DNA of 29,239 bases from a virus, in IMG/VR virus record IMGVR_UViG_3300030012_003425, positions 1 to 29,239 of that record; one strand, written 5' to 3'. Made by a program: the position numbers and the translations under genes. A model generated the notes under the pieces. That model saw only the letters and a program-made list of their open reading frames with translations. It was not told the origin of the DNA and made no database searches. This document shows positions 419 to 28,781 of the stretch, one piece after another. Numbering within the stretch: position 1 is the stretch's first letter; the number at the start of each line of letters is the position of its first letter.

Positions 419-1162
419 ATGAGCACACTAATTACAAATTTACCCGCAATTGATGTCTGGGTAAGAAAAGAATATTTAACCGACCATCAAAGTGGTCATG
501 GTGAATTTGAGAAAGGTGTTTGGGTAAGTGCGAAAAGTATGCCTGGTCGTGCCTTTTATTTTGAGACATATCTTCCCGAATATGCAGCAATGTTTGATAA
601 ATTACCAATTTCAGCATTTTTATCTCAACCAAAAACACCTGATCCTGATATGACCTTGCATAATTTGCAATTTTGGAACTGTATGGACTATGGAATTGTT
701 GCAGTTCAGAAACAATTCATCGGTTCAATGCATTATGAGGTCTATACAAGAGATTTTGGCACTCAAACAGGCACTTATGTCTGTACTTTAGATAATTATC
801 ACTCTGATGTTGACGCAATCGACTATTCAACAAGTGAAGTACCTGCTGAACATAAGTCTCATAACATCATTGAACTTGATAATGGGCAGTATTGTCTCTA
901 TCCAAACAACCGAATGAGGATTTACGATAACAGCATCACTCCAGAGACACCAAAAGTGCCTGATTTTAAGGTTTCAACAGTTTATTATCAAGTTGAAAAT
1001 GGACATGATCGTGATGGATTAGGTAATGAAGACAATTATTTCTGGAAAACTACAAAAGAACGTGGAGAAAGTAAAGAAAGAAAACCATTTGAACCCGTAG
1101 GAACAGGAAATACTGCGATTACAGGCACTGTAAATATTGATATTGAACCAGAGTTGGGATAA
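419..1162 (+). CDS. Unrecognised 247-aa protein upstream of gp25
   Basis: I do not recognise this family. The ATG lies 2 nt after the stop of the SET gene, so the two are probably co-transcribed. The protein is soluble, has no signal peptide or membrane segment, and is rich in Tyr, Asp and Asn. The first 180 residues look like a compact globular domain with many aromatics (for example VWVRKEYLTDHQSGHGEFEK from residue 13). From about 185 the sequence becomes charged and loose (ENGHDRDGLGNEDNYFWKTT, then KERGESKERKPFEP). It ends in a short beta-like stretch PVGTGNTAITGTVNIDI. A similar PVGTGNT stretch occurs in the giant protein near base 12052, which may be chance. Position beside baseplate genes makes a tail, baseplate or assembly role plausible, but nothing in the sequence proves it. 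No clear Shine-Dalgarno sequence precedes the start. Confidence 0.8.
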   Translation: MSTLITNLPAIDVWVRKEYLTDHQSGHGEFEKGVWVSAKSMPGRAFYFETYLPEYAAMFDKLPISAFLSQPKTPDPDMTLHNLQFWNCMDYGIVAVQKQFIGSMHYEVYTRDFGTQTGTYVCTLDNYHSDVDAIDYSTSEVPAEHKSHNIIELDNGQYCLYPNNRMRIYDNSITPETPKVPDFKVSTVYYQVENGHDRDGLGNEDNYFWKTTKERGESKERKPFEPVGTGNTAITGTVNIDIEPELG

Positions 1163-1206: not shown

Positions 1207-1608
1207 ATGTACGGACAACGTGTTTCGAGGTCATTTAAAGACATAAGTTTGTCTTTTGACCCTCATCCAGTCACTAAAGATCTTCCAGTTCTTAAAAATG
1301 CGAACGCAATACGTCGTTCTGTTCGTAATTTGGTACAAACAATTCCTGGTGAGCGATTTTTTAATCCTCTATTAGGATCATCAGTATATGAAACATTATT
1401 TGATCTAGCAACTTTTGGTACATCAACTCTAATTGAGAAAGAAATTATTAACACAATTGAAAATTTTGAACCACGAGTTAGTAATGTCGATGTTCAAGTT
1501 GATCCAAGGTTTGATCAAAATAATTTCGATGTAACAATCTTCTTTGATATTGTAGGATTAGAGTTACCAACTCAAGAATTTTCATTTATCCTAGAAGCAA
1601 CTCGATAA
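1207..1608 (+). CDS. gp25: Baseplate wedge protein gp25 (GPW/gp25 family)
   Basis: This 133-aa protein is the T4 gp25 homologue, a small sheath-initiator/baseplate wedge component related to bacterial type VI TssE. T4 gp25 has a similar length (132 aa). The family signatures are visible: NANAIRRSVRNLVQTIPGER at residues 31-50, followed by FFNPLLGSSV, and the EPR motif at 88-90 followed by VSNVDVQVDP. In T4 it sits at the wedge core next to gp6 and gp53 and helps start sheath assembly. The ATG at 1207 follows a late promoter box by 21 nt; there is no strong ribosome-binding site. One nucleotide separates its stop from the gp6 start, which implies coupled translation. In T4 itself gene 25 lies away from gene 6; adjacency here is typical of marine T4-like phages. 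Confidence 0.95.
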   Translation: MYGQRVSRSFKDISLSFDPHPVTKDLPVLKNANAIRRSVRNLVQTIPGERFFNPLLGSSVYETLFDLATFGTSTLIEKEIINTIENFEPRVSNVDVQVDPRFDQNNFDVTIFFDIVGLELPTQEFSFILEATR

Positions 1609-1609
1609 T

Positions 1610-3604
1610 ATGCCTTTTACTAAGTTTACAAATCTAGATTTTGATCAGATTAAATCCGAAATTAAGAGTTATTTAAGAGCAAACTCTAATTTTAAAGATT
1701 TTGACTTTGAGGGATCGAATTTTTCAGTCCTGATAGACACGTTAGCGTATAATACTTACATAACTGCCTTTAACTCAAACATGGTTGTGAATGAATCTTT
1801 CTTAGATTCAGCAACTTTGCGTGAAAATGTGGTTTCACTGGCAAGAAATATTGGATATGTTCCTCGATCAAGATCCGCATCAAAGGCACAAGTCAGTTTT
1901 TCAATCAATACTACATCTACCGCATCAACTTTAACACTTGGAGCAGGTCTAGTATGTGTTGGTGCATCTGAAAACTCAACTGTGATGTTTTCTATACCCT
2001 CTCCAATAGTCACAACAATCAATAATGGTGTTGCAAACTTCAATAATATAGATGTTTTACAAGGAACATACTTAAGAAAACAATTTATAGTTAATGGATC
2101 TCTTGATCAAAGGTTTTTACTTGATAATTCATTCATTGATACCTCTACTATTGTCGTAAAAGTCAAAGGTATTTCTGATACTGGTACTTTAGGTAGGGAA
2201 TATTCACTTGCAAGTAACATTTTGAACTTAGATGGTACATCTGAGACCTATTTGATACAAGAAGTTCAAGATGAAAAGTATGAATTACTATTTGGGGACG
2301 GATATTTTGGTAAAAAACTTGAAAATGGTGCAATAATCACTGTAACTTACATTATTACTGATGGATCAGATGGAAATGGGTCTGCAAACTTCTCATATTC
2401 TGGTAGAGTTTTGGATGATAACGGAAATCCAGTTGTTCCAACCAATAATGTTACAATAACCACTAATTCTGTTGCTGCAAATGGTGGTGAAATAGAAAGT
2501 ATAGACTCAATTAAGTATTTTGCACCACGTATTTACGCTTCACAGTACCGTGCAGTGACCGCTAGAGACTATGAAGCAATAATTCAGTCAATATACCCCA
2601 ATACAGAGTCTGTATCGGTTGTAGGAGGTGAGGAACTTGACCCACCAGAGTTTGGACAAGTCTTAATTAGCATAAAACCAAAGAATGGTGACTTTGTTTC
2701 TGACTTTGATAAGCAAAATATACAATCAAAACTCAAAAACTACTCATTATCAGGTATAAATCAAAAAATTATCGACCTTAAGGTGCTATTTGTAGAAATT
2801 GATAGTGCAGTTTACTACAATAGTTCACAAGTTTCTAATGTGAATGATATAAAGAGTAAAGTTACGAGTATTTTAAATACATTTTCCGCTTCAAACATCA
2901 ATAAATTTGGTGGGAGGTTCAAATATAGTAAATTAGGTCAAATTATTGATGGTGCAGACTCATCAATCACTTCAAACATTACTAGAATCATAATTCGACG
3001 CAATATGAAGGCATTATTAAACCAATCTGCACAATATGAACTATGTTATGGTAATGCATTCAAGAAAAATTCTGGTGGATTCAATATTAAGAGCACAGGT
3101 TTTACAATAGCGAACCAATCTGGAACTTTATACTTCACAGATGTTCCAAATACTGATAATGATATGGGAACCTTATCTGTTGTTAAAGAATCAACAGAAG
3201 CAAACAAATTTATTGTTGTGGTAAAATCTGCTGGATCAGTTGATTATAAAAAGGGTGAAGTTATTATCAATACAATTAATGTTACTTCAACTATTCAACC
3301 TAACAACATTATCGAAATACAGGCATTTCCAGATTCAAATGATGTAATTGGTTTGAAGGACTTATATTTGAGTTTTTCTGTTGCTGATAGTACAATAAAT
3401 ATGGTTAAGGATACAATTTCATCTGGAGAGCAGATATCTGGTGTCGGATATAAGACAACATCAAGTTATTTGAATGGAAGTCTAAAAAGAGGTGATACAG
3501 TAACATCAAATGCTTCAATTATTACTACAAGCACCACATCACCTATAATGACCACGACTACATCAACAAGTTCAGGTACATCAACGTCTGGAGGCGGATA
3601 CTAA
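1610..3604 (+). CDS. gp6: Baseplate wedge protein gp6
   Basis: This 664-aa protein is the homologue of T4 gp6 (660 aa), which dimerises into the continuous inner ring of the baseplate and links wedges together. The N-terminus matches the family: FTNLDFDQIKSEIKSYLR at residues 6-23, then NFSVLIDTLAYNTYITAFNSN and a helical ESFLDSATLRENVVSLARNI segment near 60-80. The centre carries the baseplate J-like part: FGDGYFGKKLENG near 228-240 and ASQYRAVTARDYEAIIQSIYP near 310-330. From about 470 the protein is beta-rich. It ends in a Ser/Thr/Gly-rich tail (about residues 637-664) with no sequence complexity, which looks like a flexible extension. The gene is 1 nt after gp25 and 3 nt before the giant gene, so all three should be translated from one message. 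Confidence 0.95.
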   Translation: MPFTKFTNLDFDQIKSEIKSYLRANSNFKDFDFEGSNFSVLIDTLAYNTYITAFNSNMVVNESFLDSATLRENVVSLARNIGYVPRSRSASKAQVSFSINTTSTASTLTLGAGLVCVGASENSTVMFSIPSPIVTTINNGVANFNNIDVLQGTYLRKQFIVNGSLDQRFLLDNSFIDTSTIVVKVKGISDTGTLGREYSLASNILNLDGTSETYLIQEVQDEKYELLFGDGYFGKKLENGAIITVTYIITDGSDGNGSANFSYSGRVLDDNGNPVVPTNNVTITTNSVAANGGEIESIDSIKYFAPRIYASQYRAVTARDYEAIIQSIYPNTESVSVVGGEELDPPEFGQVLISIKPKNGDFVSDFDKQNIQSKLKNYSLSGINQKIIDLKVLFVEIDSAVYYNSSQVSNVNDIKSKVTSILNTFSASNINKFGGRFKYSKLGQIIDGADSSITSNITRIIIRRNMKALLNQSAQYELCYGNAFKKNSGGFNIKSTGFTIANQSGTLYFTDVPNTDNDMGTLSVVKESTEANKFIVVVKSAGSVDYKKGEVIINTINVTSTIQPNNIIEIQAFPDSNDVIGLKDLYLSFSVADSTINMVKDTISSGEQISGVGYKTTSSYLNGSLKRGDTVTSNASIITTSTTSPIMTTTTSTSSGTSTSGGGY

Positions 3605-6600: not shown

Positions 6601-9600
6601 AATTAAATTGAATGAAAATGAATTTAGATTAGCAAATGCAGGAGCAGCAGGAACAATTTCTGCAAATTATGACCGAAATAATTACGTAAATATAGTTTCT
6701 GCAGGAAGTAGTGAGCAGTTTTTTGCATATCCTGAAATAATTGTTACAGTAAATGCAGATATTATTGGTGGTGTTGGTGTAATTACTGCAACTCCAGTGA
6801 TTAAAGGATCAATTTCTGATGTATATTTGCATAATTTAGGATCTGGATATGGATCAAATACAATTAATTTCCACAAAAAACCAGATATTTTTGTAAAAAC
6901 TGGTAAAGGTGCAGAATTTAAACCAATTATTGATGGTGGTAGAGTAATTAATGTGCAAGTTACAAATACTGGTAGTGAGTATACCTCACCACCAGATTTA
7001 GAGGTTGTAGGTATTGGGTCTGGAACTGGTGCAAAACTTAGGGCAGTAATTGAAAATCAAAAAGTAGTAGATGTTGTAGTATTGAATACAGGTATTGGTT
7101 ATACTGCAGCATCAACCTCTATCAAGGTTACATCAAGGGGTTCTAATGCATCACTACAAGCGTCTGTAAGACATCTAACTGTTAATAACCATCTAAGACA
7201 TGGTGATGAGATTTTAGTTGATACAGAGGACGGTCTGCAGTATGGTTTAGTTGGTTACTCCACAGCAATAGGATTATCTGAATTTGGTGATAATAGTATT
7301 GATCATTCACCAATCATAGGGTGGTCTTACGACGGAAATCCAATTTATGGACCTTATGGGTATGATGATTCATCAAATAGTAATTCTCAAATAAGAAATT
7401 TAGAAACTAGTTATAAATTATCACCATCTGATGTGGTAGATCGACCCTCTGGATTCTCAAATGGATTCTTTATTGAAGATTTCAAGTTTGATAATAGTGG
7501 TGATTTAGATAAACATAATGGAAGATACGGAAAAACACCTGAGTTTCCAAATGGTGTTTATGCATATTTTGTAGGTATTAACACTAATACTCAAACATCC
7601 GTATTTCCTCATTTCATTGGAAACACATATAGATCTAAACTTATTAATCAAGATGTTGATCAAGGATTTGAATTCAATAAATCAAATCTTTTAAGAAATA
7701 CACTTCCTTATGCTGTTGGAGATGTTGGTACAGATAATGATTTTATTAACGAACCAAATGAAATTTTACTTCAAAGTTCAACTATTAATTCTGTTACGAA
7801 AGGATCTGTAGATTCATTTGATATACATGAAACGGGTGAAGGTTATAAAGTTGGCGATTTAGCTATATTTGATAATACAGGAACAAACGGTGGAGGTATT
7901 AGTGCGTTTGTTGATTCAGTCATCGGAAAACCTGTTGAAAATTTATCAACATCTATTGAAGATTATCAAAATGCAAAGTTAGTTTGGAATAAATCAGGTG
8001 AAATAACACTACATACAAGTCAACCACATACTTTATTAGATAATGATACTGTTGTAATTTCTGGAATATCCACATTTATTGCAAAATTAACAGGTGAGCA
8101 TGTTATTGGTGTTTCCTCAGAAAAAACAAAACTATTCTTAGATACGCCAGCAATCACTGTTGCAGGTATTGTGACTGATTTAGTAGTATCAACTATACCT
8201 AATATTTCAGTTGGGTCAACAATCGGAATAGGAACTGCTAGATTATCTGTACTAAACATTTTCCCGAATAGGAAAGTAATACGTGCAATTACTGAGCATA
8301 CCGCTGGAATTCATACAGCGACCACAGATGTAATTGAAATTACTGATAAATTTACAATTCCACTAACAACACCATACTTTGAGTCAAACTTAGATGATAA
8401 GATATTTTTTAATCCTACACAGGAATTAGGTATAGGAACAGTTTCTGGTCAAAGTGGTATCTCTACCATTGTTATAGGTAATTTCCCGATACCAACTTCA
8501 ATACCTAATCAGAGTGTATTCATACCAAATCATCCATTCAAACAAAATCAACAAGTTACTCTTACCAAAGGAGGTAGCACTCGTATAGTTGCATCGAATA
8601 CTGGCGATAGTGCTACATTTAATATTCCCGAATCTGGTGAATCACAAACATTATTTGTAATTAATAAGTCAAAAAATTTAATTGGATTAACAACACAAGT
8701 TGGTTTAACTACCACCACAGATGGATTATTCTTTAGATCCTTTAATTCTAATAATAATGATACAGATTTTAAATATTCTATAGAATCTAATTTTACACAA
8801 GAAGTTGCTAAGGTAGAAAAAATTAAATCCACAATATCAATATCCACTGCACATGGTCTTGAAAATGGTGATTTAATTACTCTCACAGTCAAACCAAAAC
8901 AATCTCTAGGTGTTGGAACCTCAGAATCAATATTATTAAAGTACAATTCAGCAAACGATAAGATTCTTGTTAATCCAATATCATTTGGATCTACTTCAGT
9001 AAATATAACAAAAAATGAATTTGAACTTACATCTCATGGATTTGAAACAGGAGAGAAGATATTTTATGACTCAAGTAGTTTTATTAGTGGTTTAGGGACA
9101 GGTTCATATTTTGTTCATAGAATTGATGATAATAAATTTAATCTCTCATTAACAAGAAAAGATAGTATTTCTGAACCACCTTTGATAGTGGATTTAAAAT
9201 CACAGGGTTCTTCACATGAGATTAGTAAAATTAATCCGATAATTCCCGTAATTAAGAACAATAATTTAGTTTTCAACACAGGTGATGCCTCTTTAACAGG
9301 ATACAGTTTAAAAATATTTTACGATAAAGAGTTTAATAATGAATTGGTTTCAATTGGGTCAACCGATGGATTTAGCGTTGTAAGTGCAGGTAGCACAGTC
9401 ACCCTTTATTATAATGATAATTTACCATCTAAAGTTTACTATTCATTAGAAAAATCTGGATTTATCAGCACAGCAGATAAAGATGTATTTAATTTTTCAG
9501 AAATTAATTTTGTTGATAGTAGTTATAATAATTCCTACAATATATCTGGAGTAGGAAATACAACATTTATTATATCAGTAAGTGAAACTCCAGAACAATT

Positions 9601-25036: not shown

Positions 25037-25384
25037 ATGGCGGTATACGTAACCAATCTGTTAATAAAAACTGGAACAACTTTTGATCAAGTATTTACGT
25101 TAGAAGACGGTGTGAGTAATTCACCCGTTAATTTAACTGGATTTGATGTTTCTGCTCAGATGCGAAAGCATCCTGGTGCAACAGGTGTGACTACATTTAC
25201 GTCATCAATTTTTGATGCTGTTGGAGGAAAAATACAAATCGGTCTAACAACTACACAAACTGCTGAGTTAAAACCAGGTAGACATGTGTATGATGTTATC
25301 ACTACTAACACTTCCACACCTAAAGTTATGGAGTGTGTTATTGAAGGTTCAGTTATTGTAACTAAAGGAGTCACACAAACCTAA
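25037..25384 (+). CDS. 115-aa beta-sandwich tail accessory protein
   Basis: The protein has the pattern of small Ig-like tail accessory proteins found next to fibre genes in many tailed phages. It has a Gly-Thr-Thr-Phe start (IKTGTTFDQVFTLEDG), then PVNLTGFDVSAQMRK at about 30-44, then GGKIQIGLTTTQTAELKPGR with HVYDVITTN at about 63-91, and a closing strand CVIEGSVIVTKGVTQT. The order (DLTG, QxR, GxIxLxLT, YDV, EGxVxVxxxVT) resembles the N-terminal domain of phage baseplate upper proteins, but the match is by pattern only. It lies 24 nt after the previous gene behind a late promoter box. Its stop overlaps the next start (TAATG), so the two are coupled. A role in attaching or decorating fibres is inferred. 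Confidence 0.82.
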   Translation: MAVYVTNLLIKTGTTFDQVFTLEDGVSNSPVNLTGFDVSAQMRKHPGATGVTTFTSSIFDAVGGKIQIGLTTTQTAELKPGRHVYDVITTNTSTPKVMECVIEGSVIVTKGVTQT

Positions 25385-25710: not shown

Positions 25711-27660
25711 ATGGCTGCTCCTGTAATAAAGTTTAAAAGAGGTGCCAACAGTAGTTTACCTGCTCTAAAAGCAGGTGAACCAGCGTTTGTAACTGATGAG
25801 TTCGATTTTTATATTGGACTGGACAACAATGCCTCCAATAACAAGTTTTTCGGTTCGCACCGATATTGGACGAGAGAGACTGCAACTGCAGGTTCTGCGG
25901 TAAGAGTCGTAGAGGGTGCAAATAATGGCGACAATTATATAGAATTTAAAGCACCTGCAACATTAGGTGGTAATTTAACATATACATTCCCTGCCACTAA
26001 CGCCACTAGCGGTATTTTACAAAATGATGGTAGTGGTAACTTAAGTTGGATGACGACTGGAACATTGGTCGGTCCTCTCACTATATCAGATACCACAGAT
26101 TCAACTACTAAAGATACAGGAGCCTTTATAATTGATGGTGGTCTTGGCGTAGAGAAGAGTGTAACTGTAGGAGCAGCAGTTTCAATCGGAGACAGACTAT
26201 TTGTTAAGGGTGAGTCAGAATTTATAGGTATCGTTACATTCCGTGGTGGAACAATCAGACTAGGTGACGGAGATACTGATGACGTTGTAGTTGGTGGTGA
26301 GTTTGCATCAGATTTAATACCTACTACTGATAATGCTCACGATATTGGTTCAGCATCAAAAGAGTGGAGAAATGCATTCTTCGATGGAACAGTAGAAACA
26401 GATGGTTTAAATGTATCTGGTGTTCTAACAACAGCACAATTAGCATCTCCAGTTATTTCAGGATTTAATCGTTTACAAGCACCACATGGTGCAACTACAA
26501 CGATTGAAGTAAAAGTTGCAACCAAGGTATCAGGACAACACAGATATCATGGTTCAGGTAGTAGTTTAGGATATGTTTTAGATGATGTTCAGTCACCATT
26601 CCTAACACTCACACCAGGTAGAACATATAAATTTGATACCTCAGATAGTAGTAATAGTGGACACCCATTCAGATTCTATCTCGATGTTGATAAAACATAT
26701 GCATATACTACAGGTGTAACAGTTGCAGGAACTGCTGGTAACTCAGGATCATATACAGAAATTGTTGTATCAGATACAACTCCTGATGTGCTTCACTATC
26801 AGTGTAGTGCTCACGGTAAGATGGGTAACGCTGTTACCACAAATTCAAATACAGTAAATACTCCTCATGATGCAACATTTGAAGGTTTACTGAATGCAAA
26901 AGGTAATGTAGATCTTGGTGACGCAACATCAGATACAATTACTGTTACTGGTAGATTCGATAGTGATTTACTTCCATCAACTGATGGTGCAAGAGACCTT
27001 GGATCATCTGATAATGAATGGCAGGATCTATTCATAGATGGAACCGCACAAATAGACTCTTTAGTAGCAGATACTGCAGATATAAACGGTGGTACAGTTG
27101 ATGGTGTAACAATTGGTGGTGCCTCTGCTGGTGCAGGTACATTCACAGATTTAACTGGTGGTAATATACAAGTTGGCGTTACTGGTGATAATGAGATTGA
27201 TACATCAAGTGGTGGTTTAACTTTAGATTCTGCTGGTGGAACAGTTACAGTTGATGATAACTTAACTGTTAATGGAACATTCACTGTATTAGGAACTCAA
27301 TCTATAATCAATACCGAAACCTTAAAGGTTGAAGATAGTTTGATTGAAGTTGGTCTTGTTAATAGTGGTGGTTCACTGGTTGCTCCTTCATCTGATGCAA
27401 ATATAGATGTTGGTTTAATCTTCCATTACTACAGTGGTTCAGCAAAGAAAGCAGCAGTATTCTGGGATGACTCAGTAGGAAGAATTGCTTTCGGTGCAGA
27501 TGTATCAGAATCATCAAGTGTATTAACAAATTCAACACATGCTACAATCGAAGCAGGTGGATTATTTGTGAAGGATGCTGCGGGATTATCTGCAGTGATT
27601 AGTCATGATGGTTCACTTAGACAGTTAGAAAATATAACAGTCGATGGTGGCTCGTTCTAA
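25711..27660 (+). CDS. 649-aa tail fibre-like protein with cupredoxin-like module
   Basis: Residues 7-36 (KFKRGANSSLPALKAGEPAF, then VTDEFDFYIG) form the phage-fibre N-terminal module related in pattern to the N-terminal domain of the Bordetella phage tropism determinant Mtd (GE...TD...IG). Residues 184-227 and 402-445 are two copies of a 44-residue module with the core DLxPxTDxAxDxGS, EW and FxDGT, typical of phage fibres. Residues 269-380 form a cupredoxin-like module with H318, C365, H368 and M371 placed as type I copper ligands. The C-terminal part (NLTVNGTFTVLGTQSIINTE near 520) is a repeated-strand region common in marine phage fibres. The protein ends in VDGGSF. It is probably a host-contact or fibre component. 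It has its own late promoter and a strong terminator just downstream, so it forms a single-gene unit. Confidence 0.85.
   Translation: MAAPVIKFKRGANSSLPALKAGEPAFVTDEFDFYIGLDNNASNNKFFGSHRYWTRETATAGSAVRVVEGANNGDNYIEFKAPATLGGNLTYTFPATNATSGILQNDGSGNLSWMTTGTLVGPLTISDTTDSTTKDTGAFIIDGGLGVEKSVTVGAAVSIGDRLFVKGESEFIGIVTFRGGTIRLGDGDTDDVVVGGEFASDLIPTTDNAHDIGSASKEWRNAFFDGTVETDGLNVSGVLTTAQLASPVISGFNRLQAPHGATTTIEVKVATKVSGQHRYHGSGSSLGYVLDDVQSPFLTLTPGRTYKFDTSDSSNSGHPFRFYLDVDKTYAYTTGVTVAGTAGNSGSYTEIVVSDTTPDVLHYQCSAHGKMGNAVTTNSNTVNTPHDATFEGLLNAKGNVDLGDATSDTITVTGRFDSDLLPSTDGARDLGSSDNEWQDLFIDGTAQIDSLVADTADINGGTVDGVTIGGASAGAGTFTDLTGGNIQVGVTGDNEIDTSSGGLTLDSAGGTVTVDDNLTVNGTFTVLGTQSIINTETLKVEDSLIEVGLVNSGGSLVAPSSDANIDVGLIFHYYSGSAKKAAVFWDDSVGRIAFGADVSESSSVLTNSTHATIEAGGLFVKDAAGLSAVISHDGSLRQLENITVDGGSF
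26260..26391 (+). repeat. Fibre module copy 1 (44 residues)
   Basis: Residues 184-227 of the fibre protein begin LGDGDTDDVVVGGEF and end with D201-T227. Fifteen of the last 27 positions are identical to copy 2. Confidence 0.75.
26515..26850 (+). other. Cupredoxin-like module in the fibre protein
   Basis: Residues 269-380. A strand pair LTLTPGRTYKFDTSD is followed by SNSGHPFRFYL (H318) and, after about 40 residues, by VLHYQCSAHGKMGNAV with C365, H368 and M371. H318 to C365 is 47 residues, the same as between the copper ligands His37 and Cys84 of plastocyanin, and C-x2-H is also the same. The Met follows after two residues rather than four. The arrangement is seen directly; copper binding is inferred. 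Confidence 0.65.
26914..27045 (+). repeat. Fibre module copy 2 (44 residues)
   Basis: Residues 402-445 of the fibre protein begin LGDATSDTITVTGRF and end with D419-T445. The cupredoxin-like module lies between the two copies. Confidence 0.75.
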
Positions 27661-27720: not shown

Positions 27721-27936
27721 ATGGATGAAAACGAATACAAAATGATCATATCAGTGTATCAAAAAAAGACACACGATATGCTTGCTCAAATTATAGGATT
27801 AGAAACACGAGTTATGGGACTAAATCATGTTGTTGAGCAATTGAGTGCAAAGGTAACTGATCAGGAAAATTTATTGATTCAACTGAGAGGTAAGAAAAAA
27901 CCAAAAAATATTACAGTAGACTCTGAGGATTTCTAA
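27721..27936 (+). CDS. 71-aa coiled-coil protein before gp13
   Basis: The protein MDENEYKMIISVYQKKTHDM continues with LLxxLExRVxxLNxxVEQLxxKV-type heptads over about residues 20-58, then a basic GKKKPKN segment and an acidic end (SEDF). It is a small, soluble helical protein with no membrane span. A GTG in frame at 27691 would add ten residues, but it lies inside the terminator stem and would be within 3 nt of the expected transcript start, so ATG 27721 is preferred. No Shine-Dalgarno sequence is evident. Its stop overlaps the gp13 start (TAATG). I do not know its function; position suggests a neck or assembly helper. Confidence 0.78.
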   Translation: MDENEYKMIISVYQKKTHDMLAQIIGLETRVMGLNHVVEQLSAKVTDQENLLIQLRGKKKPKNITVDSEDF

Positions 27937-28781
27937 TGGCGAAACCTGCTACACGACAAGAACTAATAGATTATTGCTTTAGGCAGTTGGGTGCACCTGT
28001 ATTGGAAATCAACGTTGATGATGATCAAGTTGATGATTTAGTTGATGATGCACTTCAATATTTTCAGGAAAGACATTTTGATGGTATTGAGAGGATGTAT
28101 CTCAAATATCAATTTACTCAAGAGGATATTGATAGGGGAAAGGCAAAGGGGACAACAGGTGTAGGTATAGTTACAACGACAGGGACATCAACAAATATAA
28201 CTGGATATGGAACAACCACTAATAGTTTCTATGAAACATCTAACTTTATTCAGGTACCTGAATCTGTAATTGGTATAGAAAAAATATTTAAATTTGATAT
28301 GAGTGCGATATCTGGGGGTATGTTTAGCATTAAATATCAACTTTTCTTGAACGATTTATATTATTTCAACTCGGTTGAATTATTGCAGTATGCGATGGTC
28401 AAATCATATCTAGAGGATATAGATTTTCTATTAACCACAGAGGCACAAGTAAGATTTAATAAAAGACAAGATAGATTATATTTGGATATTGATTATGATG
28501 GAATTAATGTTGGAGATTTTATTGTTATCGACTGTCATAGAATTCTTGATCCTACAACTTTCACACAAATTTTCAATGATAGTTTTTTAAAAAGATATCT
28601 TACATCATTGTTAAAAAGACAATGGGGACAAAATTTAATTAAATTTAAAGGTGTTAAGTTACCTGGCGGTATTGAATTAAATGGTCGAGAAATATATGAT
28701 GATGCACTTCGAGAGATACAAATGATTAAAGAAGAAATGAGTTCTACATATGAACTTCCACCTCTAGACTTTATTGGATAA
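27936..28781 (+). CDS. gp13: Neck protein gp13 (head completion)
   Basis: This 281-aa protein matches T4-like gp13 (309 aa in T4), which with gp14 seals the filled head and provides the tail docking site. Family features are the N-terminal ATRQELIDYCFRQLGAPVLE at residues 5-24, followed by INVDDDQVDDLVDDALQYFQ, then ERHFDGIERMYLKYQFTQED. The middle contains LFLNDLYYFNSVELLQYAMV and the C-terminal third contains LKRYLTSLLKRQWGQNLIKF then KGVKLPGGIELNGREIYDDA. The start shares one base with the preceding stop (TAATG), and its own stop shares one base with the gp14 start, so the three are probably translated as a coupled set from the late promoter at 27676. Confidence 0.94.
   Translation: MAKPATRQELIDYCFRQLGAPVLEINVDDDQVDDLVDDALQYFQERHFDGIERMYLKYQFTQEDIDRGKAKGTTGVGIVTTTGTSTNITGYGTTTNSFYETSNFIQVPESVIGIEKIFKFDMSAISGGMFSIKYQLFLNDLYYFNSVELLQYAMVKSYLEDIDFLLTTEAQVRFNKRQDRLYLDIDYDGINVGDFIVIDCHRILDPTTFTQIFNDSFLKRYLTSLLKRQWGQNLIKFKGVKLPGGIELNGREIYDDALREIQMIKEEMSSTYELPPLDFIG

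Follow-up and report, generated by a model that had tools for sequence, protein, structure and literature searches.

In known type 1 (blue) copper proteins the axial methionine may be replaced, by glutamine in stellacyanin and by leucine in ceruloplasmin and fungal laccases. In amicyanin the four ligands are His53, Cys92, His95 and Met98 (PMC12723479). Metal has also been described inside phage tail fibres, where iron was reported for T4 gp37 and proposed for Alteromonas phage R22Y (PMC11705849). The cupredoxin superfamily is known, but a widespread, unannotated virion family within it is undescribed in the open-licence literature searched, in which no paper was found that reports a phage virion with a cupredoxin or blue-copper domain. 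Here we analyzed a stretch of 29,239 bases (the window) from a T4-like marine phage, with a tail-fibre gene that encodes a module of this kind. We regard it as fairly likely that the module is a genuine type 1 copper cupredoxin domain, carried as a mobile surface module in the shaft of the fibre.

The fibre gene and the places of the module

The genes of the window follow the order gp25-like, gp6-like, a 4060-aa ORF, a gp8-like baseplate gene, a 2344-aa DUF4815 protein, LtfC-like, fibre, gp13-like and gp14-like, with the LtfC-like gene on one side of the fibre gene and the neck genes on the other (Table 1). This order is similar to that of the T4 late cluster, in which the fibre genes stand before gp13. 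The fibre gene thus combines homology to a tail-fibre family with a place in the tail gene cluster and, judged by homology and gene order, the module sits in a virion protein. Elsewhere in the window, beside the gp25-like baseplate gene, an ORF at 419-1162 (+) matches phrog_3704, labelled 'ferredoxin', with an E of 7e-113; it has zero Pfam matches and only three scattered cysteines. Its baseplate neighbour makes the label doubtful, and the label is probably a mistake.

Table 1. Features of the fibre gene and of its neighbours, in window coordinates
Feature	Position	Strand	Basis or remark
LtfC-like (L-shaped-tail-fibre-assembly-like) gene	25037..25384	+	phrog_3304 E 7.8e-29; PF23926 over cut-off
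Tail-fibre gene, 649 aa, ATG start	25711..27660	+	ORF call; PHROG tail fibre phrog_30742 E 2.2e-67
N-terminal Mtd_N-like segment, residues 6-35	25726..25815	+	PF18454 E 9.9e-5, under curated cut-off
Shaft repeat copy 1, about residues 183-230	26257..26400	+	self-comparison
Cupredoxin module, about residues 264-376	26500..26838	+	family profile envelope, AlphaFold2, Foldseek against PDB
H318, putative ligand 1 (equatorial His), CAC	26662..26664	+	His in 191/192 copies
C365, putative ligand 2 (Cys thiolate), TGT	26803..26805	+	Cys in 190/192 copies
H368, putative ligand 3 (equatorial His), CAC	26812..26814	+	His in 190/192 copies
M371, putative ligand 4 (axial), ATG	26821..26823	+	Gln, Leu or Tyr in relatives
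Shaft repeat copy 2, about residues 401-448	26911..27054	+	self-comparison
C-terminal region, about residues 502-649	27214..27657	+	in module-less orthologous fibres too (tblastn, alignment)
Neck protein, gp13-like (head-tail adaptor Ad2)	27936..28781	+	phrog_211 E 5.7e-48

The sequence-only reading had pointed to a cupredoxin-like module with a full set of copper ligands at 26515-26850 (fibre residues 269-380); this observation is confirmed, and the interpretation attached to it is partly supported. The module is flanked by two shaft repeats, in which 13-14 of 25 positions are identical between residues 183-228 and 401-446. The fibres of DSL-LC02 (which is also syntenic with the window), S-B05, S-B43 and AG-345-D19 have the same ends without the module: they have in common the N-terminal 113-232 residues, a region of orthologous fibres to which the Mtd_N-like segment belongs, and the last 140 or more residues. 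Other copies are found at the C-terminus of gp9 baseplate connectors and, twice, in the proximal tail fibre of P-SSM2. In locus L188, a phage subtilisin-like protease (1297-3303) has at its end a copy with the full ligand set, and the gp9, proximal-fibre and subtilisin-like copies all keep H...C-x2-H-x2-M. Placed between shaft repeats, absent from orthologues and recurrent in other proteins, the module is mobile. It is present in phrog_30742, phrog_677 (the gp9 connector), phrog_693 and phrog_27200, which are annotated as tail, baseplate or unknown and none of them as a copper protein.

Relation to the cupredoxin superfamily

Reading of the codons established that H318, C365, H368 and M371 form a complete set placed as in type I copper proteins, as the sequence-only reading had stated, in the pattern His...Cys-x(n)-His-x(n)-Met (or Gln/Leu) and with a C-x2-H-x2-M loop. 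The distance of 47 residues between H318 and C365 was also exact, but the diagnostic value given to it did not hold: family members have distances of 41 to 65, and the agreement with plastocyanin is a coincidence.

Taken alone, the window module matched no cupredoxin family at significance, nor Copper-bind or plastocyanin up to an E of 1 (Pfam/NCBIfam); its link to cupredoxins runs through its family. Searched against the PDB, the family profile found Cu nitrite reductase (6hbe, 8.4e-5), plastocyanin (3cvb, E 7.6e-4), on whose ligand columns H, C and H fall, and pseudoazurin (3tu6, 7.8e-3). One divergent member, used as a single sequence, matched the Prochlorothrix plastocyanin 1b3i with an E of 5.2e-5, family members matched amicyanin (7e-5) and plastocyanin (6.9e-4) in NCBIfam, and 17/20 of one subgroup matched Pfam Copper-bind (best 2.5e-5). 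Conversely, a cellular-cupredoxin profile, built independently from 32 sequences of cellular loci, recovered many phage proteins (best whole-protein E 1.7e-17), and hhalign related it to the window-subgroup profile at 95.2% with an E of 2.8e-8, against 0.1% for the reversed control. Comparison of the two phage subgroups gave 99.9% and 7.6e-35, a value flattered by a few rows common to both alignments, and the sequences plainly place both subgroups in one family. With this significant profile relation to the superfamily, the module is almost certainly a cupredoxin by descent. Weak matches below cut-off to CBM_4_9 and PilE_C (Pfam) and RrgB_K2N_iso_D2 (NCBIfam) were taken as beta-sandwich noise, and immunoglobulin chains in the PDB profile search (E 0.1 or worse, mainly over the last strands with Y-x-C) as chance.

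AlphaFold2 models, built from window and IMG/VR loci only, reached a pLDDT of 94.6 for the window module, with nine strands, and of 96.2 for the divergent subgroup that bridges it to cellular proteins; the predicted all-beta fold agrees with the Greek-key beta sandwich of about eight strands of the superfamily. The fold search bore out the earlier suggestion of a cupredoxin fold, since it returned cupredoxins almost exclusively. For the window module, Foldseek against the PDB found rusticyanin, laccases, pseudoazurin (including one engineered with the amicyanin loop), Cu nitrite reductase, AcoP and a purple cupredoxin, with the peptidase SO1698 as the only clear non-cupredoxin. The divergent subgroup had 64 matches with E <1e-3, those listed being cupredoxin-fold proteins, and its match to factor VIII concerns a ceruloplasmin-type fold. 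The TM-scores to solved cupredoxins were about 0.4-0.5 for the window module and 0.5-0.6 for the divergent subgroup; being moderate, they let the models support the fold class, not the geometry of the ligands. In BFVD, giant-virus 'Beta-sandwich proteins' (A0A481Z6J5 and A0A481Z7Q7 from Pithovirus LCPAC302/304, A0A481YWX9 from Marseillevirus LCMAC201) match the fold of the module with TM 0.73-0.79, and two are stand-alone.

Distribution and conservation of the probable metal site

With the window module as query, tblastn found 51 records of phages of Prochlorococcus, Synechococcus, Methylophilales and Pelagibacter, and 44 IMG/VR loci were matched, which agrees with the earlier suggestion that the module may be widespread in marine phage fibres; a divergent copy as query added 129 loci, 80 of which were kept. 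An iterated profile search over these loci gave 243 copies, 207 unique and 192 full-length, distributed as one copy in 72 ORFs, two in 60 and three in 17. Laboratory phages with the module are P-SSM2, P-HM1, Bellamy and P-TIM68. Its carriers also include phages of non-photosynthetic hosts, namely the Pelagibacter (SAR11) phages Mosig and Baldr and the Methylophilales phage Melnitz, and the idea that the fibre mimics a photosynthetic electron carrier is for this reason disfavoured. Cellular homologues were sought by a GTDB scan, which returned two MAG contigs only, both with phage tail genes, and a plasmid scan for the module gave no match. A second copy in the window, at 9233-9469 (E 0.00145, 19% identity), was rejected, as the family profile, even unfiltered, found nothing in that ORF.

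Among the 192 full-length copies the ligand sets were HCHM in 177, HCHQ in 10, HCHL in 2 and HCHY, HSSV and YSAM in one each, so that 190 have H, C and H together with M, Q, L or Y; the axial position is Met in 178, Gln in 10, Leu in 2, Tyr in 1 and Val in 1. The four most conserved residues of these copies are H318, C365, H368 and F308. Among 20 representatives that are all less than 50% identical to one another, with pairs averaging 30%, H318 is conserved at 100%, C365 and H368 at 95% and M371 at 85%. These figures are somewhat inflated, some loci having been fetched with patterns containing C-x2-H. As a control, a profile that stopped at P358 and had its His column masked was searched against the same loci and hit 190 places, in 182 of which (including one row, L047, re-read by hand) C-x2-H and then M/Q/L/Y follow just downstream, the other eight being interrupted or decayed copies. 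Far from the poor conservation that could have spoken against the proposed ligands, the alignments thus indicate a conservation far beyond chance. The site was lost in two copies only (HSSV and YSAM), in both of which the Cys and the second His are gone together, as expected if they share a metal. We conclude that the metal site has very probably been kept by selection.

Within this conserved pattern the sequences vary in loop length, as among cellular cupredoxins, and six divergent copies have C-x2-H-x3 to x5-M. L104 and L075 (copies at about residues 1384-1525 and 1363-1491 of the respective ORFs) form a subgroup with eight further loci; its axial ligand is Gln (HCHQ, C-x2-H-x2-Q), its Cys strand is preceded by a long insert, and it resembles stellacyanin-type copper sites. 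In L057, L058, L061, L063, L064 and L039, second copies near residues 750-950 of the ORFs match the first half of the module, beyond which the sequence is different and has no C-x2-H loop; L039 shows a YYYC stretch again further downstream, and its domain may be interrupted by an insertion.

Possible roles of the metal and known counterparts

The metal of the site is probably copper, and the retention of the four ligands in nearly all of about 190 copies suggests that virus particles of this kind probably carry it. We tentatively propose stabilization as its main role, at a little under an even chance. The fibre would fold inside the host, whose cytoplasm has minimal free copper, and would acquire copper following lysis or on the cell surface; the bound metal would then lock the beta sandwich, stapling the exposed module instead of a disulfide, and the stapled module could present its loops to the host surface. 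A copper-loaded fibre might otherwise act as a lure, recognized by a copper or metallophore receptor in the outer membrane of the host; the Trojan-horse idea put forward for iron in phage fibres would then have a counterpart with copper. The presence of the module in surface adsorption proteins (fibres and the gp9 connector), its exchange between otherwise similar fibres, as happens with receptor-binding parts, and the published precedent of iron in fibre HxH motifs (PMC11705849) agree with such a lure; we nevertheless find it unlikely, given that no receptor is known, that the hosts are diverse, that the module lies mid-fibre and not at the C-terminal tip, and that a type 1 site buries its metal, from which direct handover is not obvious.

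In a redox switch, Cu(II) would be reduced on the surface of the host, and the resulting change in the fibre would help tail contraction to start; such a switch would make use of the complete type 1 ligand set and of an axial ligand (Met, Gln or Leu) tunable as in redox-active cupredoxins. Reduction, however, leaves the shape of a type 1 site nearly unchanged, no electron partner is known and the hosts include non-photosynthetic ones, so we judge this switch quite improbable. Much the same low probability goes to zinc or iron at a conserved site in a copied cupredoxin fold: structural zinc rarely has an axial Met, and His-Cys-His with Met, Gln or Leu is the pattern of type 1 copper. In favor of another metal, sequence alone does not choose between metals, and iron has a precedent in phage fibres (PMC11705849). 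It could also be that the beta sandwich alone matters, as an Ig-like adhesion scaffold with relic ligands, and the fold does tolerate loss of the site, as seen from the few copies without it and the several second copies that end without the loop; but a relic would have decayed, whereas His, Cys and His are kept in 190/192 copies at about 30% mean identity between representatives, which largely refutes this reading and leaves it very little probability. We favor the post-lysis metal staple, then the receptor lure, then the redox switch or another metal.

It would be unexpected to find a textbook family of copper electron carriers built into virus particles with its site under strong selection. 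A module that stands without annotation in the tail fibres, baseplate connectors and further structural proteins of abundant ocean phages can now be named and put to the test. Should it bind copper, these phages may depend on the metal for adsorption, and their particles would act as a new ligand for copper in sea water. The widest reading is possible though rather doubtful: marine T4-like, T7-like and SAR11 phages would have an unrecognized family of type 1 copper domains borne on the virion, with more than one tail protein per particle containing them; the particles would then be copper proteins, and their copper would play a role in adsorption or triggering as well as in the copper pool of the sea.

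Among known proteins, plastocyanin (PF00127) is the best single-sequence PDB match of a family member, but its C-x2-H-x4-M loop and its function in photosynthetic electron transfer differ from the C-x2-H-x2-M loop and the context of the fibre module, which has no Pfam or NCBIfam score over cut-off and does not belong to the plastocyanin functional family. Rusticyanin provides the top Foldseek matches of the window module (E 2.9e-4, with a TM-score <0.5), but is larger, has a longer ligand loop and is a soluble electron carrier. The short loop, called atypical in the sequence-only reading, has the same spacing as in amicyanin of Paracoccus (PMC12723479), and Cu nitrite reductase chains from the family-profile PDB search (CSIHPYM, CTLHPWM) likewise have C-x2-H-x2-M; amicyanin, however, is a soluble periplasmic electron carrier, whereas the phage module is part of a larger fibre protein of the virion. 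The HxH fibres (reported for T4 gp37, proposed for R22Y) would likewise place a metal in a tail fibre, as predicted for the module, but through octahedral iron sites from paired-His motifs, with no separate metal-protein domain.
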